In this document: one piece after another, positions 8,094-16,936 of the stretch | Layout: every line of letters starts with the position of its first letter | How positions within the stretch are numbered: the first letter of the stretch is position 1 | Assembly (NCBI GenBank): GCA_017508135.1 | Contig: JAFVZN010000034.1 | Coordinates: 1 to 53,404 of the forward strand | Direction: 5' to 3' | DNA: 53,404 nucleotides | Source of the DNA: Lentisphaeria bacterium | GTDB taxonomy: Bacteria; Verrucomicrobiota; Lentisphaeria; Victivallales; Victivallaceae | The notes under the pieces: generated by a model | What the model was told of the DNA's origin: nothing | Databases searched by the model: none | Seen by the model: the letters and a program-made list of their open reading frames with translations, nothing else | Program-made: the position numbers and the translations under genes

Positions 8094-8678
8094 ATGAGTG
8101 GAGTTGACGTCCGGATCGGAGCCAGATTGAAAAATCTCCGGTTGCGCAGTGATATTTCTCTGCGCGGTCTTGCGCAGAAAGCAGGGGTTTCTGTCAGTTA
8201 CCTGTCAGCAGTGGAAAAAGATTCCGCTTCTCCCACGCTGGCTACTCTCCGCCGGATATTGGCGGCATTGGATACCAACTTTATCAAATTTTTCAGCGAT
8301 GAAGAGGATAATACCGAACAGTATTTCTTCCGTAAAAGCGGTATGCGTACCGTGGTCGACCGTGACCGGGAATATACGTTCATCCTGCCGCAGCGGGATG
8401 ATATCGGCATCGAGTTTATGGATGAGAACTACTTTTACGGAGATACGGTTCCGGAGTTTGAAACGATGGAAAACGATTTTTCCGGCTATGTCATCTCTGG
8501 AAAAATAATCGTTGAAGTCGGCGATGAACCTCCCACTCATCTGGACAGCGGCGATGCCTTCTACGTTCCCCGCGGCACGGCGATGCGCGGCTATTGTGAA
8601 AAAGGTGAACGCGCGCGGCTGCTCACCGTGCTTTACCGGAAAAAAGCCTCTTCCGACACCGAAGTCAAGCCAGAATAA
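8094..8678 (+). CDS. XRE-family regulator with cupin sensor domain
   Basis: This 194-aa protein has an N-terminal XRE helix-turn-helix (residues about 8-62, with the core SLRGLAQKAGVSVSYLSAVE). A C-terminal cupin barrel includes HLDSGDAFYVPRGTAMRGY. This architecture (PuuR/SutR type) senses a small ligand or metal and represses nearby genes. The ligand is unknown. The 3' end overlaps the end of the convergent terminase gene by 14 bp. It may therefore be a host gene abutting the phage cassette or a regulator belonging to it. Confidence 0.88.
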   Translation: MSGVDVRIGARLKNLRLRSDISLRGLAQKAGVSVSYLSAVEKDSASPTLATLRRILAALDTNFIKFFSDEEDNTEQYFFRKSGMRTVVDRDREYTFILPQRDDIGIEFMDENYFYGDTVPEFETMENDFSGYVISGKIIVEVGDEPPTHLDSGDAFYVPRGTAMRGYCEKGERARLLTVLYRKKASSDTEVKPE

Positions 8679-9918
8679 ACTTTTTTCCGCTGTCAGCAAG
8701 TTCAGTCAACGCCCAGACCAGAGCATCCATCCGGTCGGGCGATTTTTTCTGGTTTCCCGGAGCGAAGCTCACCATCTCCTCCTCCAGAAGCGGGAACTCG
8801 CCGACATGATGCACCAGTTTCCGCTCATAAAGAGCCGCTACCGGTTCCGCCCGGATAAGTTTGCCCCGGGAGGCGCGTACCGGACGGAAACTCAGGTGCG
8901 GATCAAGTTTATGCAGCAGGGCTTCGATCAGATCACCGCCGTTGTTGACTTCACCGGTAACGCGGTCAGCATCGAGTTCATAGTATAAAGAGATCACTTC
9001 CTTTCCCCATTCCAGCGGTGTGCCGCGCATGGAACGGTCGGCAAGGACGTAATATTTTCCATCGACTCCGGCGGCGGCGGCGACGATCCCGGTGGAATCG
9101 CTCTCATCTCCGGAGGATACTGCCGGGTCAACGCCGATCACCACCCGTTGAAATTCCGGAACCGTACTTACCCGGAACGGGTCGATCATCCCGCGTTTCC
9201 ACAATGCACCCTCGACTTCATCCAGAAACTTCCCTTCAAGAAAACGTTCCCGCTGGCGGCGGGGAAGTCCGGCGAGGGTGTTTTCAATATAGCCTTCCGG
9301 CAGGTTGCCGGCGTTGTCCAGAGGATTTATCCGCATGGCGGCGTAATCGTCCGGATTGCGCAGCGGCAGTGTATCTGCCGGATTGAGTTTTTCGATGAAA
9401 ACGCGGTATGTCCAATGTTTTTTTCCCGGCGGATTGCAGTCAAAAAGAGCTTTGGGTTTCAACGGCGGCGAATGTTGCGCCAGACGGGTCAGGGCGGTCT
9501 GAACGCTGGAATAATCCAGTTCGGAACATTCGTTGAAGTATATGGTGACGAACTCTTTGCCCAGAATTTTATCAGCGCGGGAATCGTCATCCAGTCCGGT
9601 GAGCCAGATTTGCGATCTGTTGGCAAAAGTTATCACTCCTTCGCTCTTGTTGTATTCATACTCCAGTGCGTTGCCGAAGCGCGTGGACAGCACCTTGGGC
9701 AAAGTGTCCGCGCCGATGGCGGAACGGACAGTGTTGGCGTAACGGCGGATGATGGCATGACGGGAACCGGGTGAACGCAGTGCCCTTATGACCAGCACAC
9801 AGCAGAGGAGAAAGGTTTTACCGGAACGGGAACCGCCGAAAAGCATGATGTTTTTTCTGTTTCCGGCGATAAGCTGCAACGCCCGTTCCTGAGCCGGAGT
9901 GTAGGTGAAACCTGCCAT
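8665..9918 (-). CDS. Phage terminase large subunit
   Basis: This 417-aa DNA-packaging motor has a Walker A FGGSRSGKT (about 27-35) and a Walker B ending in Glu (VTIYFNE). The C-terminal RNase H-like nuclease has Asp residues in VIGVDPA and RMDALVWA. It pumps DNA into the prohead and cuts it. The ATG at 9918 was chosen because it comes 5 nt after the upstream stop and has AAAGGA 11 nt ahead; a longer reading from 9972 would overlap the upstream gene by 49 nt. It is the last gene of the head cassette, which is unusual because TerL normally precedes portal. The frame is intact. Confidence 0.93.
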   Translation of the reverse strand: MAGFTYTPAQERALQLIAGNRKNIMLFGGSRSGKTFLLCCVLVIRALRSPGSRHAIIRRYANTVRSAIGADTLPKVLSTRFGNALEYEYNKSEGVITFANRSQIWLTGLDDDSRADKILGKEFVTIYFNECSELDYSSVQTALTRLAQHSPPLKPKALFDCNPPGKKHWTYRVFIEKLNPADTLPLRNPDDYAAMRINPLDNAGNLPEGYIENTLAGLPRRQRERFLEGKFLDEVEGALWKRGMIDPFRVSTVPEFQRVVIGVDPAVSSGDESDSTGIVAAAAGVDGKYYVLADRSMRGTPLEWGKEVISLYYELDADRVTGEVNNGGDLIEALLHKLDPHLSFRPVRASRGKLIRAEPVAALYERKLVHHVGEFPLLEEEMVSFAPGNQKKSPDRMDALVWALTELADSGKKFILA

Positions 9919-9923
9919 CGCAG

Positions 9924-10463
9924 TCAGCATCCTTTCAAAGAGACACTGCTCTCCCGGTGGCGGAGAAAACACTGTCTGCCGCGCGAAAGTTTGGACATGG
10001 TGCTTTTCAGCAGCATCGCCAGTTCCGGACGGCGGGCGATGATATCCAGTATTTTGCGGTGCATCGCCTGCCGGGAACAGCCGTGCAGTTTGCTTAAAGC
10101 GGTGACGGAACAGTGTTTACGTTCCGGGTCGGCGGGGGTGATGACTTCACTGATGATGCCGATGGTGTAGTCGTCCAGTTCCAGCAGAAAGCGGAAGAAT
10201 CTTCCCAGCATGGAAATAAGGTGATTTTTGTCCTGACGGCGGGACATTTCCTCCTGTTCGCCGGGGATGTGGTCGTAATCGGCGGCATCGGTGAGCCACG
10301 ATTGGACTTCTTCAAAACTTGCCAGATGAGAACGGCTTTCCACCTGGGCGGCGGTGGCGGCATAGTAGCCGCAGGAGCTGTAATATTCACATCCGGTGCA
10401 GTCGGGAAATTTGCCGTGAACATCAGAACCGTAACATTCGGGGTAAGCTGGATGATTTTTCAT
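9924..10463 (-). CDS. Phage-cassette protein with Cys cluster and HTH
   Basis: This 179-aa protein is of unknown function. The N-terminus has a cysteine cluster (CYGS..., then DCTGCEYYSSCGYY) that could bind zinc or an iron-sulfur cluster. The C-terminal third has a helix-turn-helix-like stretch (VTALSKLHGCSRQAMHRKILDII). The ATG at 10463 is preferred over an upstream TTG because GGAG lies 9 nt before it. It sits directly in front of the large terminase, where a small terminase or packaging regulator would be expected, so DNA recognition is plausible but not shown. Confidence 0.7.
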   Translation of the reverse strand: MKNHPAYPECYGSDVHGKFPDCTGCEYYSSCGYYAATAAQVESRSHLASFEEVQSWLTDAADYDHIPGEQEEMSRRQDKNHLISMLGRFFRFLLELDDYTIGIISEVITPADPERKHCSVTALSKLHGCSRQAMHRKILDIIARRPELAMLLKSTMSKLSRGRQCFLRHRESSVSLKGC

Positions 10464-10514
10464 ATTTTCTGTCTCCAATTCAATCAGTAAAAGTTTTCTG
10501 GCGGGGAACTCCGG

Positions 10515-10847
10515 TCAGCCGCGCTGCAAGGGCACTCCGGGAAGCGGGCAGTGCCGGGCCGCCAGGGCTTCAAGGAAGAATTTGGCGCGGGGCGCGATCA
10601 GCGGTATTTCCGGTGAAGCGGCTGCGGCGATATGCGGATTGAGCAGAAGATAAAGCGTATGCTCAAATATCGCCGCTTGCAGCATCTCATCCGGTTCTTC
10701 CGGAAAATCGGTCAGGCTCAGCACGGCAGTTATATCCCGGACAGCTCCGGCTATGGCATTGGCCTGCTGTTCCTCCGTGAAAGAGGTGAAACTCTCTTTG
10801 GCAGGATGGGAGGAGAAAAATTCATTGGCATCAGTTACAGTCAGCAT
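10515..10847 (-). CDS. Putative head-completion/connector protein
   Basis: This 110-aa acidic protein starts MLTVTDANEFFSSHPAKESF. That pattern, a short segment on 'vtda..yfa.h...' followed by a helical body, is common in small phage proteins placed after the major capsid gene (gp6 or DnaT-like connector group). The start at 10847 has GAAAGAAC upstream; the longer reading is unlikely. The position after the capsid supports a head-tail connector role. The assignment rests on position and general character only. Confidence 0.55.
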   Translation of the reverse strand: MLTVTDANEFFSSHPAKESFTSFTEEQQANAIAGAVRDITAVLSLTDFPEEPDEMLQAAIFEHTLYLLLNPHIAAAASPEIPLIAPRAKFFLEALAARHCPLPGVPLQRG

Positions 10848-10938
10848 GATTTGTTCTTTCAGAAACAGAATTGGAATATCAAACGGAAACAAAGCGGTTC
10901 CGGGATGAAAAACATCTCGGAACATGAGTTCGCATCGC

Positions 10939-12096
10939 TCAATTACCGCGCAGCGCGGCAATCGCTTCGGCACTGGGCTTGAGGTTGGTCAAACGGCAGC
11001 ACCGCTGGGCGGCGTTGCGGAACTCAAAGGTGAGTTCGCCGATGGCAACGCGGCGGATGCCGTCAAAGCCTTTGGGCGTGGCATCGACATCGGTGATGGC
11101 GCGGCCGGAGAGGTTGGCAAGCGCGAAACACTGGGGATCGAGGATCCACGCATCGGTATCCGGCACATCCGGGTCAGCCATGATGGTCATGCCGCGACCG
11201 TTGATCTCGTTGACGATCACGGCGACATACGCGCCGCGCCGGTCATCGGAGCGCAGAATCTGGATGCGGTCACGGTATTCGTTGGAGATGACGCGCGCCT
11301 GTCCCGGGGAACAGAGGATCTGCATCGGATCGCCGCCTTCGGCAAGGACTTTCTGGGCACCGTCATTGATGAGGAAACTGTCCAGCGCGGCGTTGGAAGC
11401 GTTGATGGAGAGGGCGTTTTCTCCGGTGCCGAAGCAGTAGAGACCACCGGCTTCGCCGTGAACGCCCGGGGCGGCTTCCAGACGGCGGCCGAAGAGGGCG
11501 ACACGGTTGAGGTCGCGTGCCAGTTCCGAAAGGGCGAAAGCGGTTTGGCGGTTGAGCTGGTTGTCGGCACTGCCGTTGATGGTGACCGCGAGGGCACTGC
11601 CGGAGATGATGATCTCTTTACGGAAGATCTGGGTCGCGTTCCATTCGACTTTGCTTCCGGCATAACTTTCATCGCCGTCACCGTTGGCACTGCCTTCACT
11701 CATGGGAGTGGAGACGATGATGAATTCCGCACCGCCGGAGGGGAGATCGCTGACACTCTGGAGAGAAGAACCGTTGACGGCGACCAGTTCCACGGTGACA
11801 CTGCCGTCGTTGACAGCGGCAACTTTGAACAGAGCCGGATCATCTTTGACGGCGATAAGGGTGCCGGGAACGATACTGAGATTGCTGTTTTCGGCGGGGG
11901 TCAGCGTTCCGCCTGAGATGGAACTTGCGGTGAAGCCGCGTCCGGAAAGCTGATCTTCGATCCACTCGTGTTTGCGCTGGGTGGCATCGGCACCGGGGCG
12001 GAAGTTGGAGATGAAACGGGGTTCATCTTTGATGACGGTGAACATGATGTCGGAGAGGTCGCGTTTGCAACCGGCGAAGCTGTAAGTGTAGAACAT
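10939..12096 (-). CDS. Major capsid protein (SU10/DUF5309-like)
   Basis: This 385-aa protein contains RDLSDIMFTVIKDEPRFIS near the start. A long HK97-like body follows, with a central helical spine (LNRQTAFALSELARDLNR) and a C-terminal segment (ALANLSGRAITDVDATPKG). These features recall the SU10 major capsid/DUF5309 family. It would form the icosahedral shell. Scaffold and portal genes directly upstream support the call. The Shine-Dalgarno AAGGAAA precedes the ATG. The reading frame is complete. Confidence 0.75.
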   Translation of the reverse strand: MFYTYSFAGCKRDLSDIMFTVIKDEPRFISNFRPGADATQRKHEWIEDQLSGRGFTASSISGGTLTPAENSNLSIVPGTLIAVKDDPALFKVAAVNDGSVTVELVAVNGSSLQSVSDLPSGGAEFIIVSTPMSEGSANGDGDESYAGSKVEWNATQIFRKEIIISGSALAVTINGSADNQLNRQTAFALSELARDLNRVALFGRRLEAAPGVHGEAGGLYCFGTGENALSINASNAALDSFLINDGAQKVLAEGGDPMQILCSPGQARVISNEYRDRIQILRSDDRRGAYVAVIVNEINGRGMTIMADPDVPDTDAWILDPQCFALANLSGRAITDVDATPKGFDGIRRVAIGELTFEFRNAAQRCCRLTNLKPSAEAIAALRGN

Positions 12097-12137
12097 CTGT
12101 GATTTTCCTTTCTGATTGTTCTGTTGAATGGGGGATA

Positions 12138-12677
12138 TCAGTTATTTACCATCGCTGCAGAGGCGAGGGAATCCATGATCCGGTCGACCTGACTGCCGGA
12201 GGCGGCAAAGGCGGATGCCGGGTGATGGCTGCGGAAGGTTTCCGGCGCGATACCGGAACTTGAACCGGGGGTGATCCGGGCGCGGAAACAGCCGGGTGAG
12301 GTTTCGGCAAGCCGGGCGGAAAACTCTTTCACTGCGGCAGTGTCATCAAGATCAAGACCGTCGCGGCGGGCGAGGAAGTCGAAGTAATCGGCATCGCTGC
12401 AGCCGATCTCTCCGGTAAGTTTTTCGATACGGCAGCGGCGTTTGAGTTCCTGATGTTCATTCTCCAGAGTGGAGTGGGTGGAACGCAAAGTGTCCAGCTC
12501 TTTCTGTAATTTTTCCGAGTGGGAAAGTTTTTCATTTTCCAGAAGTTCGAGCTGACTTCGGGCGTGGTTCAGCTCTGCGGTGAGCGTTTCCGGATCGAAG
12601 GCGGAAAGTTCCGCTTTTTCAGCCGGGGAAAGCTGTTCGCCGTTGAGTGAACGGGTAATGAGTTCTTTTATGGTCAT
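12138..12677 (-). CDS. Capsid scaffold-like coiled-coil protein
   Basis: This 179-aa protein has a long charged coiled coil (about 30-85, ETLTAELNHARSQLELLEN and onward) and a flexible Gly/Ser/Pro-rich C-terminal part. This is the usual design of phage scaffold proteins, which guide prohead assembly and then leave. It lies between portal and capsid, as scaffold genes do. Its ATG overlaps the portal stop codon (ATGA), which indicates translational coupling. No protease domain is visible. Confidence 0.7.
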   Translation of the reverse strand: MTIKELITRSLNGEQLSPAEKAELSAFDPETLTAELNHARSQLELLENEKLSHSEKLQKELDTLRSTHSTLENEHQELKRRCRIEKLTGEIGCSDADYFDFLARRDGLDLDDTAAVKEFSARLAETSPGCFRARITPGSSSGIAPETFRSHHPASAFAASGSQVDRIMDSLASAAMVNN

Positions 12678-14056
12678 ACATTCTCCTTTCGATTGATTTC
12701 GTTGAATATCTGTTGTTTGTCATCGTTGCCGATGGGTTCCACTGAATCGAGCAGTTCGGTTGCGGCATGTCCGAGGGCGCGGTCATACGCCGGTCCCAGA
12801 TGCAAATTGGAGAGCTGCATGATGCCGGAGATGGCGGCGGCGAGGTCGCGGACGGCGAATTTCCGGTTGTAATGTATTTCCGGAACTGTGACATCCAGAT
12901 CGTACAAATGCATGATCTTCCACGCTTCAAGTTCCGATTGTTCCAGCAGATCGGCGCGGGCAGAGAGGAACTGGCTGACATTCTGGAAGTCCCACGCTTT
13001 GGATTCTGCGCTCTGGTTCTCCCGGGATCTGCTCTGGACTGCAAGTCCCACGATTTCGTAAAGTTCCCGTTTCAGATGATCGTTTTCACTGCGGATGGTG
13101 GCAGTTTCCACTCCGGACGGGCTGATAAACCGGCTGATGCCCTTCTCTTCCACCGCTTCGATAATGGCGGCACTGCGGGCAACGGTCGCGGAAAAATTTT
13201 CACTTTTGCTTCCGGCGAGAGCGAGCTTCTGGGCACCGCGGGCGAAACTGTCGGAGACGACCAGCATACCGAACATCTGCTTGACGGTATTCATCTGGGC
13301 TTCGGATTCGTTGTTGAGTATCGCTTCGCTGATGCGGACGGCATCTTCGAACCAGTGTCCGGAGTCGATGCCGTAACCGTCAGGTTCGATGACCGGGACC
13401 AGCGGGACTGTTCCGGTGGAATTTATACCGCTGTCGATCTCCTTTATGCCGGAAGAAGTCTGTTCAAAAAGATGCCACGAGGTGCGGTCATAAAGGCGGC
13501 GGCGGCGCAGCTTCACCGGCGGTGAATAGGGATCGGAGTTGAGGAACTCCTCTTCTGCGGTCAATGCCCAGAGCAGTTTCCCGTCCGGCGCGTAAGCCCA
13601 GTCCGTGACCTGGAGCGGAGAGAGTGCCCGCACATAAGGACGGAGCCGTTCCCGGCGTGCGCGTTCCAGGGTGGGAATACCCTCAAAGTTGGGCATCTCC
13701 ACCAGCAGCCATGCGCGGCCGTAAACGTTGAGCATGGTGGAAAGCTGGCGCATGACTTCGTTGCAGCGCAGCCCGGAACGGCTCCAGTCCTCAACAAGTT
13801 CGCCTCTGGCATTTCTGCGGATGGGGTCAACTCCGAGAACATATTGGGTGATGCGCTGGGCGATTGTGCGCGGATAGTTGAAATAGTAGGCGCGGCGGCG
13901 GCGTTCAGTGAATTCGATATCGATTTCGGAAACGTGCCGGATAAGGGCCTGGTCGATGTAAGCGCGTCCGCCGGTGTAGGCGGCTTTGCAATGTTTCCAT
14001 CCGGCTTCATTGGCTGAATATTCCGGATGGCGGCGGTAGAAGAGATAGTTGTTCAC
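12674..14056 (-). CDS. Phage portal protein
   Basis: This 460-aa protein is of portal length. N-terminal residues (YYFNYPRTIAQRITQYVLG) and a long central helical region (LKRELYEIVGLAVQSRS...QSAESKAWDFQNVSQFL) match the general layout of SPP1/DUF4055-like portals. The portal ring sits at one capsid vertex and docks the terminase. A GTG at 14056 with GGAG 7 nt upstream is a better start than the TTG 12 nt earlier. It is coupled to the scaffold gene by a 4-nt overlap. Confidence 0.78.
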   Translation of the reverse strand: MNNYLFYRRHPEYSANEAGWKHCKAAYTGGRAYIDQALIRHVSEIDIEFTERRRRAYYFNYPRTIAQRITQYVLGVDPIRRNARGELVEDWSRSGLRCNEVMRQLSTMLNVYGRAWLLVEMPNFEGIPTLERARRERLRPYVRALSPLQVTDWAYAPDGKLLWALTAEEEFLNSDPYSPPVKLRRRRLYDRTSWHLFEQTSSGIKEIDSGINSTGTVPLVPVIEPDGYGIDSGHWFEDAVRISEAILNNESEAQMNTVKQMFGMLVVSDSFARGAQKLALAGSKSENFSATVARSAAIIEAVEEKGISRFISPSGVETATIRSENDHLKRELYEIVGLAVQSRSRENQSAESKAWDFQNVSQFLSARADLLEQSELEAWKIMHLYDLDVTVPEIHYNRKFAVRDLAAAISGIMQLSNLHLGPAYDRALGHAATELLDSVEPIGNDDKQQIFNEINRKENV

Positions 14057-14071
14057 GATACACTCCAAATG

Positions 14072-14458
14072 TTACAGATCGTTTTCGACTTTATTCAACT
14101 GGATATTGACCACAGTTTCTCTGGAATTGCCGCTGCTGCTGCAGTTGTTCCAGCGTTTTGGACGGCGGTTCCGGAGCCAGAATACGGCGGCGCGGACATC
14201 GGGGGCGATCTCTTTGCCGCTGCTGTCCTCATATCCGGTGGCGCGGCGCAGGAGAGCTGCTTCCACCATATCATCGCAAATATTCTCATCGCCGTGGAAC
14301 AGGCGGTCGAATTCCGGATATTGTTTCCGGTAACGCTTCAATGTTGCCGGAGATATCCCGAGCCATTCAGCTGCGCGTTCCGGAGGATTTCCGGCATCGA
14401 GGAACCCGGCAAGTTCCGGAAGGCGCGGTTCGATCAGATTTTGATATTTGTTTCTCAT
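14072..14458 (-). CDS. Terminase small-subunit-like DNA-binding protein
   Basis: This 128-aa protein has a helix-turn-helix in its first 50 residues (PPERAAEWLGISPATLKRYR). A conserved-looking block follows (LLRRATGYE, then PDVRAAVFWLRNRRPKRW) that recurs in TerS-like phage proteins. TerS recognises the packaging site and regulates TerL. It lies 15 nt before the portal start. Its 5' end overlaps the preceding small gene in another frame by 92 nt. Confidence 0.75.
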   Translation of the reverse strand: MRNKYQNLIEPRLPELAGFLDAGNPPERAAEWLGISPATLKRYRKQYPEFDRLFHGDENICDDMVEAALLRRATGYEDSSGKEIAPDVRAAVFWLRNRRPKRWNNCSSSGNSRETVVNIQLNKVENDL

Positions 14459-14624
14459 GGAAATCTTTTTCTTTCACTGTGTTTGCTGTCGTTTTCCACC
14501 ATCGCGCTCTATTGTCAACACGATTTTCTGCATTTTCCGGGAAAAGGGCATCCAGCAGACGGCGGATCCCGGAAAGTGAATAGACTTTTCCATTGGGAAG
14601 TTTGATACAGGTTGAAGTTTCCAT
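14367..14624 (-). CDS. Small phage-cassette leader protein
   Basis: This 85-aa protein is the first gene after the leftward promoter. A strong Shine-Dalgarno (CCGGAGGA, about 8 nt before ATG) supports translation. The first 30 residues (METSTCIKLPNGKVYSLSG then LRRLLDALFPENAEN-like) could form a small domain. The last 30 residues overlap the TerS-like gene in a different frame and are Arg/Ser-rich. The function is unknown; a regulatory or coupling role is possible. Confidence 0.55.
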   Translation of the reverse strand: METSTCIKLPNGKVYSLSGIRRLLDALFPENAENRVDNRARWWKTTANTVKEKDFHEKQISKSDRTAPSGTCRVPRCRKSSGTRS

Positions 14625-14648: not shown

Positions 14649-14662
14649 TTGCACCAATGCAA
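14649..14662. promoter_or_regulatory. Operator O3 (TTGC-N6-GCAA)
   Basis: TTGCACCAATGCAA is a 14-bp near-palindrome. It lies in the leader between the leftward phage promoter and the first phage gene. Two further copies occur at 14720 and 14785. Confidence 0.65.
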
Positions 14663-14712
14663 TAAAAAAATATAAGCAAGGCTTTTTTTAATTAAGTTTA
14701 TTCTAAAAAAGC

Positions 14713-14740
14713 AATATAATTGCATTGATGCAATTATCAA
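14713..14740 (-). promoter_or_regulatory. Leftward promoter of the phage head cassette
   Basis: On the minus strand TTGATA (14735-14740), a 16-bp spacer and TATATT (14713-14718) form a good promoter. Operator O2 (14720-14733) fills the spacer, so repressor binding would block RNA polymerase. Confidence 0.7.
14720..14733. promoter_or_regulatory. Operator O2 (TTGC-N6-GCAA)
   Basis: TTGCATTGATGCAA lies exactly between the -35 and -10 boxes of the leftward phage promoter. It is the most symmetrical of the three sites (TTGCAT/ATGCAA arms). Confidence 0.7.
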
Positions 14741-14784: not shown

Positions 14785-14798
14785 TTGCATGGGCGCAA
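14785..14798. promoter_or_regulatory. Operator O1 (TTGC-N6-GCAA)
   Basis: TTGCATGGGCGCAA covers the -35 box and the start of the spacer of the repressor's own promoter, which suggests autoregulation. Centre-to-centre distances between the three sites are about 71 and 65 bp. Confidence 0.65.
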
Positions 14799-14813
14799 TA
14801 AAATGATTATATT
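14785..14813 (+). promoter_or_regulatory. Promoter of the LexA/CI-like repressor
   Basis: TTGCAT (14785-14790), a 17-bp spacer and TATATT (14808-14813) point rightward. Transcription would begin near 14820. That rules out the ATG at 14803 and supports the GTG start at 14845. Confidence 0.65.
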
Positions 14814-14844
14814 GGAGACGATTTCAAGTCCGAAGGAGGCAGTT

Positions 14845-15750
14845 GTGAGGATAGATGATTCTCTGCGGGCAAAACTTGTCAGTGCTGTGGAAAAGGCAGG
14901 CGGTGCCCGTGAATTTTCTTTAAAATGCGGCGTGAATGCCGCTAACATATCCCGGTATCTCAACCGGAAGATATCCAGTATAAATGATGATAACTGGGAG
15001 AAATTGGCGCCGTTTCTGGAAGAGGCTCCGCCGGTACGTCCGGATGGCGGCAATAATGAAGGATTTATCAGTTCTACTCCGGAACTTTCTGAATTCATTC
15101 TGGCGCGGATGAAGTCGTGCGGGATAGCAAGTGTCGAAGAGTTGCGGGTGAAGATAAACTGTTCATCATACCAGCAGTTGCGCTGGCAGATATCGGGACG
15201 GCTGAACTGGTTTGCCGATACATTGGGACAGGTCATTGAAGTGCTGGATATCGAACCTGATACTCTGCCGGTCACTCCGCGCGAACGCAGGATAATCAGT
15301 CATGCCATGATGAAGCGCGGTATCAGCGGAGTCATGCGTATGCTGCCGGTCATCGGCGGTTGCATGTGCGGAAACTTTGCTGATATAGAGAGCGGACTTT
15401 CCCGGGGAACGGCGCATCCGGTTCCGGTACCGATGGATGACCGGCGCGATCTGCGCGCGTTTCTCCTGAGCGGAACGATGATGGAACCCACACTGCTGAA
15501 CGGTGATATCGTGGTGACGGAAGTTGCAGACGATCTGTTTCAGATACCGGATAATATGTTGACGGTATTGCGGTTTACGGATGAATTTTCGCCCAAGACA
15601 CGGCTTTGCTGCGGCAGATTCCATCTGCTTGCCGGCAAGAGTGTGATATTGAGCTTCGACCATCCCGGCGGTGGTTTTATCCACATACCTGTTTCATGTA
15701 TCAGCTGGAGTGCCATCATCCGTTATCGTATCAGCGACTTCCACGGGTGA
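14845..15750 (+). CDS. LexA/CI-like repressor lacking the catalytic serine
   Basis: This 301-aa protein has an N-terminal HTH-like region (GGAREFSLKCGVNAANISRYL) and a C-terminal S24/LexA-fold domain. A Cys-Gly cleavage-site-like pair (residues 175-176, in PVIGGCMCGNF) is kept. The motif that normally reads GDSMEP is SGTMMEP, so Met212 stands where the nucleophilic Ser should be. Autocleavage is therefore unlikely and induction may not depend on RecA. The GTG at 14845 has an ideal AAGGAGG 5 nt ahead. It is divergent from the phage head cassette and probably represses it through the TTGC-N6-GCAA sites. Confidence 0.8.
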   Translation: MRIDDSLRAKLVSAVEKAGGAREFSLKCGVNAANISRYLNRKISSINDDNWEKLAPFLEEAPPVRPDGGNNEGFISSTPELSEFILARMKSCGIASVEELRVKINCSSYQQLRWQISGRLNWFADTLGQVIEVLDIEPDTLPVTPRERRIISHAMMKRGISGVMRMLPVIGGCMCGNFADIESGLSRGTAHPVPVPMDDRRDLRAFLLSGTMMEPTLLNGDIVVTEVADDLFQIPDNMLTVLRFTDEFSPKTRLCCGRFHLLAGKSVILSFDHPGGGFIHIPVSCISWSAIIRYRISDFHG

Positions 15751-15817
15751 CACATCGCCGCAGGTATGATTTTTATGGAACAGCAGTAATTTTTTCAATG
15801 AGTTTTGAAAAATTCAC

Positions 15818-15845
15818 TTGACTTTGGCGGAATTTGTTTTATAGT
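15818..15845 (+). promoter_or_regulatory. Promoter of the moxR-batA operon
   Basis: TTGACT (15818-15823), a 16-bp spacer and TATAGT (15840-15845) lie 45 nt before the moxR ATG. Confidence 0.6.
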
Positions 15846-15890
15846 TGTCAGGTGTAACGATTTTCAGTACAGAAACGGAGGATTTGACAA

Positions 15891-16913
15891 ATGGAACAGA
15901 ACGACATTCAGCTTCTTCAGCAGGAGGTGCGCCATGTAGCCGCGCCGTTGCAAAGTGTGCGCGGTGAGATGGGGCGGATAATCGCCGGTCAGGATATGCT
16001 TATAGAAAGGTTACTTCTGGCACTGATAACCGACGGTCATGTGCTGCTGGAAGGTGTGCCGGGATTGGCAAAAACGCTGGCGGTCAAAACGCTGGCGAAA
16101 ACTTTGTCCGGTTCATTTTCGCGGCTGCAGTTCACGCCGGACTTGCTGCCTGCGGATGTCATCGGAACGCGGATATATAATGCCGCCACGGGAGAGTTCA
16201 CCACCCGCATCGGACCGGTGAGTGCCAATATCGTTCTTGCGGACGAGATCAACCGGGCTCCGGCGAAGGTGCAGAGTGCGCTGCTGGAGGCGATGCAGGA
16301 GAAGCAGATCACCATCGGCGGGGAACGTTTTGCCCTGCCTGACCCGTTTCTGGTGATGGCGACACAGAACCCCATTGAGCAGGAGGGAACCTATCCGCTG
16401 CCGGAGGCGCAGCTTGACCGTTTCATGTTCAAACTCAAAGTCGATTATCCTTCCCGCAGTGAGGAAGCGAGCGTGGTCGAGCGCATGGCGCATCCGGCAC
16501 CGCCGCCGGAAGCGTTGTCAGTGGCGCGTGTCGAAGATATCATCGAAGCGCGCAAGATGGTCGACCGTATATATATGGATGAAAAGATCGTCGAATACAT
16601 CCTTGATCTGGTGATCGCCACCCGGCCGGGGCAGAGCAAATCGCTTTCTGACCGGCAGAACGGGGTCAAACTTTCCGGTATCGGGCATCTGGTAAGTTTC
16701 GGTGCATCGCCCCGGGCATCCATTGCTCTTGCTCTGGCGGCAAAAGGTTTGGCACTGTTGCGGGAACGGGCATTTGTTCTGCCGCAGGATGTGAAGGATC
16801 TGGCGCCGGATGTACTTCGTCACCGCATGGTGCTTTCCTACGAGGCGGAAGCTGAAAACATCGATGCCGATGCGATCATCGCCCGTTTGCTGGCAGAGCT
16901 GCGCACTCCCTGA
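15891..16913 (+). CDS. MoxR-family AAA+ ATPase
   Basis: This 340-aa protein has Walker A (LEGVPGLAKT) and Walker B (IVLADEINRAP) motifs, the sensor-1 Asn in ATQNPIEQEGTYPLPEAQLDRF, and a C-terminal lid domain. MoxR ATPases act as chaperones that work with VWA-domain partners at the membrane. The following genes encode a DUF58 protein, a membrane protein and the VWA protein BatA. That is the standard aerotolerance/stress operon order. Confidence 0.95.
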   Translation: MEQNDIQLLQQEVRHVAAPLQSVRGEMGRIIAGQDMLIERLLLALITDGHVLLEGVPGLAKTLAVKTLAKTLSGSFSRLQFTPDLLPADVIGTRIYNAATGEFTTRIGPVSANIVLADEINRAPAKVQSALLEAMQEKQITIGGERFALPDPFLVMATQNPIEQEGTYPLPEAQLDRFMFKLKVDYPSRSEEASVVERMAHPAPPPEALSVARVEDIIEARKMVDRIYMDEKIVEYILDLVIATRPGQSKSLSDRQNGVKLSGIGHLVSFGASPRASIALALAAKGLALLRERAFVLPQDVKDLAPDVLRHRMVLSYEAEAENIDADAIIARLLAELRTP

Positions 16914-16936
16914 TACCGGGTCCGGGAGGAACATTT

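Follow-up and report, generated by a model that had tools for sequence, protein, structure and literature searches.

The phage-type head and packaging genes found in a 53,404-nucleotide contig of a Lentisphaeria bacterium (JAFVZN010000034.1 of assembly GCA_017508135.1; this whole stretch is hereafter the window) form a cassette that is a conserved feature of its genus and not a sporadic remnant. There is strong support for the view that it encodes part of a vertically inherited, multi-locus, phage-derived particle, and we consider it likely that this domesticated particle, with its loci spread over the chromosome, works as a gene transfer agent (GTA), the transfer of host DNA probably being, by analogy, the best reading of its function. 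The evidence, as read from sequence, lies in the gene identities, their conservation and vertical inheritance, purifying selection, the dispersal of the tail-like genes, an element shared between loci, and the loss of the helix-turn-helix (HTH) from TerS in a sister clade.

GTAs are known from few lineages; how often GTAs have evolved, and how to tell them from dead prophages, are questions raised in reviews. A single genus with a conserved head cassette and unlinked tail genes shows domestication in a series of states, within a phylum where no GTA report was found, and, if the present reading is true, would open a path for uncultured bacteria of animal guts to exchange genes.

Organization of the cassette in the window

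A sequence-only reading of the window had claimed eight intact genes at 8665-14624, and all eight ORFs indeed exist on the minus strand and are open, in the order short ORF, TerS, portal, scaffold, major capsid protein (MCP), adaptor, Cys/HTH protein and TerL (Table 1). The identities which it had proposed for TerS, portal, scaffold, SU10-type capsid and TerL are borne out by PF and phrog matches, and the Walker A and nuclease residues of TerL are invariant or nearly so across 28 genomes. The predicted model of the adaptor has a pLDDT of 90, and its best structural neighbours are Bacillus subtilis YqbG (Z 7.7) and the Sf6 in situ complex 7sp4 (Z 4.0), values which are not decisive for a helical protein; a Foldseek search of this model against PDB and BFVD returned no significant match. 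No match was obtained when the MCP was compared by sequence with solved structures, or in family searches with the Cys/HTH protein (9924-10463).

With better starts chosen for the portal (14056), adaptor (10847), Cys/HTH protein (10463) and TerL (9918), the several 4-nt couplings claimed earlier reduce to a single real one, namely the ATGA of portal and scaffold at 12674-12677, the remaining gaps being 5-91 nt long. The short first ORF (14367-14624), for which 67% identity was seen in G031 and partial matches in others, is kept only among near relatives; given this weak conservation and its overlap with the window copy of the promoter-like element described below, it may be a leader ORF. The repressor gene and its operators also belong to the cassette unit, as an addition to the stretch originally delimited.

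The window is contig C108 of its own assembly (G000; 2.0 Mb, 73% complete), and the cassette is set among host genes, MutM and FtsA to one side and, to the other, a MoxR/DUF58 operon (gene names assigned by inspection). At 8665-8678 the 3' ends of TerL and of a host XRE-cupin regulator gene converge with a 14-nt overlap. As noted in the sequence-only reading, no tail, lysis or integrase gene was recognized among the window ORFs scanned.

Table 1. Features of the cassette unit and its regulatory region, in window coordinates.
Feature	Position	Strand	Evidence or remark
Large terminase TerL	8665..9918	-	Walker A + nuclease motifs; PF03237 4e-18, PF17289 2e-14, phrog_979 6e-70
Cys-cluster + HTH protein	9924..10463	-	Adjoins packaging genes; its homologues in prophages stand next to TerS/TerL
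Probable head-tail adaptor, 110 aa, helical	10515..10847	-	Comes after capsid gene in prophages too
SU10-type major capsid protein (MCP)	10939..12096	-	PF17236 2.6e-46; dN/dS 0.07-0.21
Capsid scaffold	12138..12677	-	PF06810 (Phage_scaffold) 1e-6, below its curated cut-off; phrog_194 5e-7
Portal	12674..14056	-	phrog_145 4e-44; dN/dS 0.04-0.22
Small terminase TerS, 128 aa, HTH kept	14072..14458	-	phrog_309 1e-19; alignment
Short first ORF, 85 aa	14367..14624	-	Good ribosome-binding site; leader or small protein
Promoter-like element GTGTTGACAATAGAGCGCGATGGTGG, common to unlinked tail-gene loci	14490..14521	-	Best PWM site in window, 18.4
Operator-like palindrome, copy 2	14649..14663	.	TTGCA-N4-TGCAA; 71 bp from copy 1
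Operator-like palindrome ATTGCATCAATGCAAT, copy 1	14720..14734	.	TTGCA-N4-TGCAA
Degenerate third palindrome copy	14785-14799		
CI/LexA-like (S24-type) repressor, divergent from cassette	14803..15750	+	phrog_4 6e-5

Conservation, inheritance and selection across the genus

The capsid gene is present in 30 of the 34 genus genomes, including all 15 of those that are at least 90% complete. The sequence-only reading had proposed a search for the same gene set in relatives, and content and order are indeed kept, under purifying selection, across about 28 cassettes, all with the order TerS-portal-scaffold-MCP-adaptor-CysHTH-TerL and the repressor on the opposite strand; the host genes around them differ between subclades (20-kb neighbourhoods compared). 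These relatives are represented in GenBank by Lentisphaeria/Victivallaceae MAGs, many of animal-gut origin; most of the genomes are drafts, and genes in them were called with a home-made caller. In two of them (L036/L037, from G029 and G017) the cassette lies between the same host gene groups, the MoxR side and the c69-c44 side, but with its orientation reversed between the two genomes, as though by an inversion in situ.

Mantel correlations with SecY distances reach 0.80-0.86 for MCP, TerL, portal, scaffold, TerS and the Cys/HTH protein, with values, from fewer genomes, of 0.66 for the adaptor and 0.43 for the repressor. In the capsid tree 28 genus cassettes form one clade (support 100/99) without any phage inside, its sole additional member being the divergent second capsid of G021. 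Besides an ordinary cassette, this genome holds at L059 (G021:C46) the second, fast-evolving capsid at ~9577-10704 and, nearby, a divergent TerL on the opposite strand at 15672-16931.

Estimates of dN/dS by NG86, a simple counting method for which some dS values are saturated, range over 0.05-0.14 for TerL and are similarly low for MCP and portal (Table 1), at dS of about 0.5-2.6; for the closest pair, G000-G031, they are 0.08 (MCP), 0.06 (TerL) and 0.07 (portal) at dS 0.5-0.8. Such purifying selection demonstrates function, without telling which. The earlier argument against simple decay is upheld by these low values, by frames that are intact in nearly all genus genomes and by the constant gene order. 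The sole genus capsid gene split across two frames is that of L069 (G005:C25, 9384-10384), where a sequencing error or an early loss is possible.

Unlinked tail genes and a shared promoter-like element

The genome of the window carries a distal-tail-like gene on a different contig from the cassette (C36:19271-20098, E=8e-85), and hence the earlier description of the system as tail-less, while applicable to the window, fails genome-wide. This family is present in 31 of the 34 genus genomes. Its putative identity derives from homology and from its position after the tape-measure gene in prophages; the protein has no match among curated families, and its AlphaFold model was poor (pLDDT 51, three sequences) and was set aside. 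In G029, a member of the window subclade, the distal-tail-like gene heads an operon with counterparts of the next tail-tip genes of the prophage, two of these three being matched weakly (E 2e-5 and 3e-6) and the third not at all. The operon further encodes a fibre-like protein of 625 aa that bears a ConA-lectin domain, along with three small genes. Distal-tail homologues also occur in other families, in which the capsid search came up empty (G036:C1:1252110-1252964 and 2313659-2314417; G045:C83:4039-4833); they could come from prophages or from some further dispersed system.

Tail proteins are short and divergent, and tube and terminator genes were sought with profiles seeded from prophage tails. 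Orphan tube genes (142-151 aa, one shorter) were found in 26 of the 34 genus genomes and in none of six control genomes, and terminator-like genes in 14 of the 34, both kinds standing singly or paired amid host genes. In G014 and others the cassette, tube and distal-tail genes occupy separate loci. Genus-wide searches detected no tube or terminator genes in the window subclade (G000, G031, G029 and G017), and tube, terminator and head-closure profiles run at full sensitivity over 775 kb (about a third) of G029 found none; the tube of this subclade may have diverged past the profiles, lie in the missing part of the assembly, or have been lost. Two neighbours suspected as tail genes were set aside: c14, which is DciA, and c11, which has no family match. 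No lysis gene was identified with confidence.

An element of the form GTTGACRAT-N5-GGCA stands upstream of the orphan tube genes. When a PWM trained on ten tube upstreams only was scanned over ~2.1 million positions, taken from genus loci and the window, the hits scoring at least 17 outside the training set fell on 12 cassettes (window included), on one further tube and one terminator, and on two unrelated sites. Within G029 the cassette has the top-ranking site and the distal-tail operon the third, and three of the 33 loose matches found genome-wide in G014 lie upstream of the cassette, the tube gene and the distal-tail gene. Several other subclades have the element in weak form or not at all. 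It may act as a promoter, and in part of the genus the cassette and tail loci seem to be linked to one another through it.

Repressor, operators and the small terminase

The gap between the cassette and the divergent repressor contains the palindrome pair ATTGCAYNNRTGCAAT, which is operator-like and provides putative targets of the repressor: TTGCA-N4-TGCAA occurs twice in the whole window versus an expected 0.09, and the palindrome is found again in nearly all repressor/cassette gaps of the genus. A search for it at the tail loci showed it to be absent there. An alignment of 18 genus copies of the repressor displays GISMEP or a similar motif in most, this being lost in G000, G031, G017 and G029; in this window subclade the motif reads SGTMMEP, another residue having taken the position of the catalytic Ser in SMEP, which would make autocleavage-type induction unlikely there. 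Taken together with the tube that went undetected, this loss makes a changed function possible in the window subclade.

The TerS of 11 sister-clade genomes is only 77-86 aa long and lacks the N-terminal HTH, which is kept in prophages and other lineages, the window subclade included. Reviewed GTAs have a TerS without a detectable DNA-binding domain (PMC11841831), and the loss in the sister clade may be taken as an indirect hint at nonspecific packaging there, the window TerS retaining its HTH.

Related prophages and dispersed homologues

The prophages L033 (IMGVR_UViG_2786546706_000002) and L082 carry homologous TerS, portal, scaffold, capsid, adaptor, Cys/HTH and TerL genes, and MCP identity to the window is 57-63% in the prophages and viral contigs L033, L034 and L082. 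The placement of TerL last, described as odd in the sequence-only reading, is real and is shared by L033 and L082, with further genes between. Unlike the cassette, the Victivallales prophages and viral contigs (L033, L082, L034 and L223) keep their early genes together in one block with neck, tail, tape measure and a minor head protein. That reading had regarded full prophages at this locus in relatives as pointing to a recent remnant; the full prophages that exist are separate elements outside the genus cassette clade. Their minor head protein is encoded at L033:11987-13561 and L082:11861-13774, the L033 copy being fused to an ADP-ribosyltransferase domain (PF03496, 2e-23).

In the complete chromosome of the cultured relative zth2 (CP071032) head and tail homologues lie far apart, with scaffold-MCP-adaptor and two tube-like genes at ~1.774 Mb, portal and a head-closure-like gene at 1.786 Mb, TerL together with a TerS-like gene at 1.604 Mb, and, at both 0.739 and 1.276 Mb, tube/terminator-like fusions. 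Tube-like and terminator-like regions fused in one frame are seen at L220:9175-10059, L221:9658-10554 and L227:9452-10303, in zth2 and another Lentisphaeria genome. Cultured zth2 was reported to release hexagonal particles <100 nm on polysaccharide growth (PMC11361711), an observation made on the strain as a whole. All 20 tested genomes with a capsid outside a cassette have a TerL match, in most cases full length and located on another contig, and a few of them also hold full prophages. In L110 (Victivallis vadensis DSM 14823, 1669-2019) the capsid match covers the C-terminal part only, with an open adaptor gene after it and an open TerL elsewhere in the genome.

Proposed mechanism and alternative explanations

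From these genes we infer a course of repression, particle assembly, DNA filling, release and delivery. The repressor, bound to the two palindromic operators, would keep the cassette silent; upon induction, the cassette would yield portal, scaffold, SU10-type capsid, adaptor and terminase, and the tail would be supplied by unlinked genes, namely the distal-tail/fibre operon, tube and terminator, which the promoter-like element precedes in part of the genus. We propose that TerL fills the heads with host DNA because the element is no longer one packageable genome; the particles would then be released from the cells and deliver this DNA. As to origin, we lean with modest confidence towards an independent GTA in Lentisphaerota, which would have arisen as a prophage broke into a head/packaging cassette and scattered tail loci, was re-tied by the promoter-like element and underwent stepwise domestication within the one genus, with loss of the TerS HTH in one clade and of the repressor's catalytic Ser in the window clade.

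The main rival is a domesticated phage particle that serves something other than DNA transfer, be it an antagonistic or signalling particle or a storage shell, or one whose transfer ability was lost in the window subclade. Purifying selection and vertical inheritance would suit any beneficial function, and the window subclade has a repressor without the catalytic Ser and no detected tube or terminator. However, the portal and the ATPase and nuclease motifs of TerL are conserved, needless as they would be for an empty shell; that subclade has also retained the distal-tail-like gene; and the HTH loss in the sister-clade TerS agrees with nonspecific packaging. We accordingly regard this rival as rather unlikely, while giving it more weight than those that follow.

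Of the three options offered by the sequence-only reading, a GTA-like system and a domesticated capsid gain support from single-copy conservation throughout the genus, purifying selection, vertical inheritance and dispersed tail genes, whereas the third, a satellite, fares poorly. Such a capsid-forming, cf-PICI-like element would make its own heads and borrow tails from a helper phage, consistent with head/packaging genes and a repressor without adjoining tail genes; that no integrase or replication gene was found beside the cassette, that all the near-complete genomes carry it in co-diversification with SecY, and that prophage-type tail genes are kept in the same genomes render it improbable. 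Still less probable is a decaying prophage remnant, for which the absence of integrase, replication and most tail genes near the cassette and the split capsid gene of G005 might speak, but against which stand the intact frames and constant order, the dN/dS values of capsid, portal and TerL, which stay well under 0.3 at dS 0.5-2, and the conservation of both the operator and the unlinked tail genes. Least probable of all is an assembly artefact whereby a complete prophage was split across contigs: most genomes are drafts, yet cassettes lie mid-contig, bordered to either side by host genes (the 53-kb window; G029:C14, 182 kb; G014:C36, 258 kb), orphan tail genes sit amid host genes, and the homologues are dispersed even in the complete zth2 chromosome.

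Comparison with known systems

Six viriform criteria have been laid down for GTAs, among them tailed-phage origin, vertical inheritance, random host DNA, no whole-genome packaging and DNA delivery (PMC9662315). Three of the six are matched by what the sequence holds: the genes come from tailed phages; inheritance is mostly vertical, with co-diversification with the host (the Mantel values and single cassette clade given above); and the loci are separate, the cassette and distal-tail-like gene being on different contigs in G000, and cassette, tube and distal-tail loci being apart in G014 and others. As regards whole-genome packaging, loci that are unlinked on different contigs would be unlikely to be packaged jointly. 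A complete prophage would unite its head and tail genes with those for lysis and early functions in a single block, whereas in the window and in relatives the cassette is bordered by host genes; a cf-PICI would have an integrase and a sporadic distribution, whereas no integrase was recognized near the cassette and 15/15 near-complete genomes carry the capsid gene. No paper on GTAs in Lentisphaerota or Victivallales was found in the open-access literature.

Among known systems, RcGTA/Rhodogtaviriformidae resemble the cassette in their phage-derived head, portal and terminase cluster and vertical inheritance, RcGTA genes likewise being scattered over several loci (PMC9662315), and the RcGTA TerS, as in the sister clade, has no DNA-binding domain. 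The cassette differs from RcGTA in its SU10-type capsid, its phylum, some single-gene tail loci, a TerS with an HTH in the window, and, next to the head cluster, a CI-like repressor with operators. VSH-1/BhGTA of Brachyspira has a divided GTA genome at separate loci (PMC11841831, PMC9662315), a likeness of layout; it differs in belonging to another phylum, and both TerL and TerS form part of the present head cluster. The cf-PICIs share with the cassette head and packaging genes without adjoining tail genes, but the cassette is set apart from them by vertical inheritance, the lack of visible mobility genes and the possession of its own unlinked tail genes.
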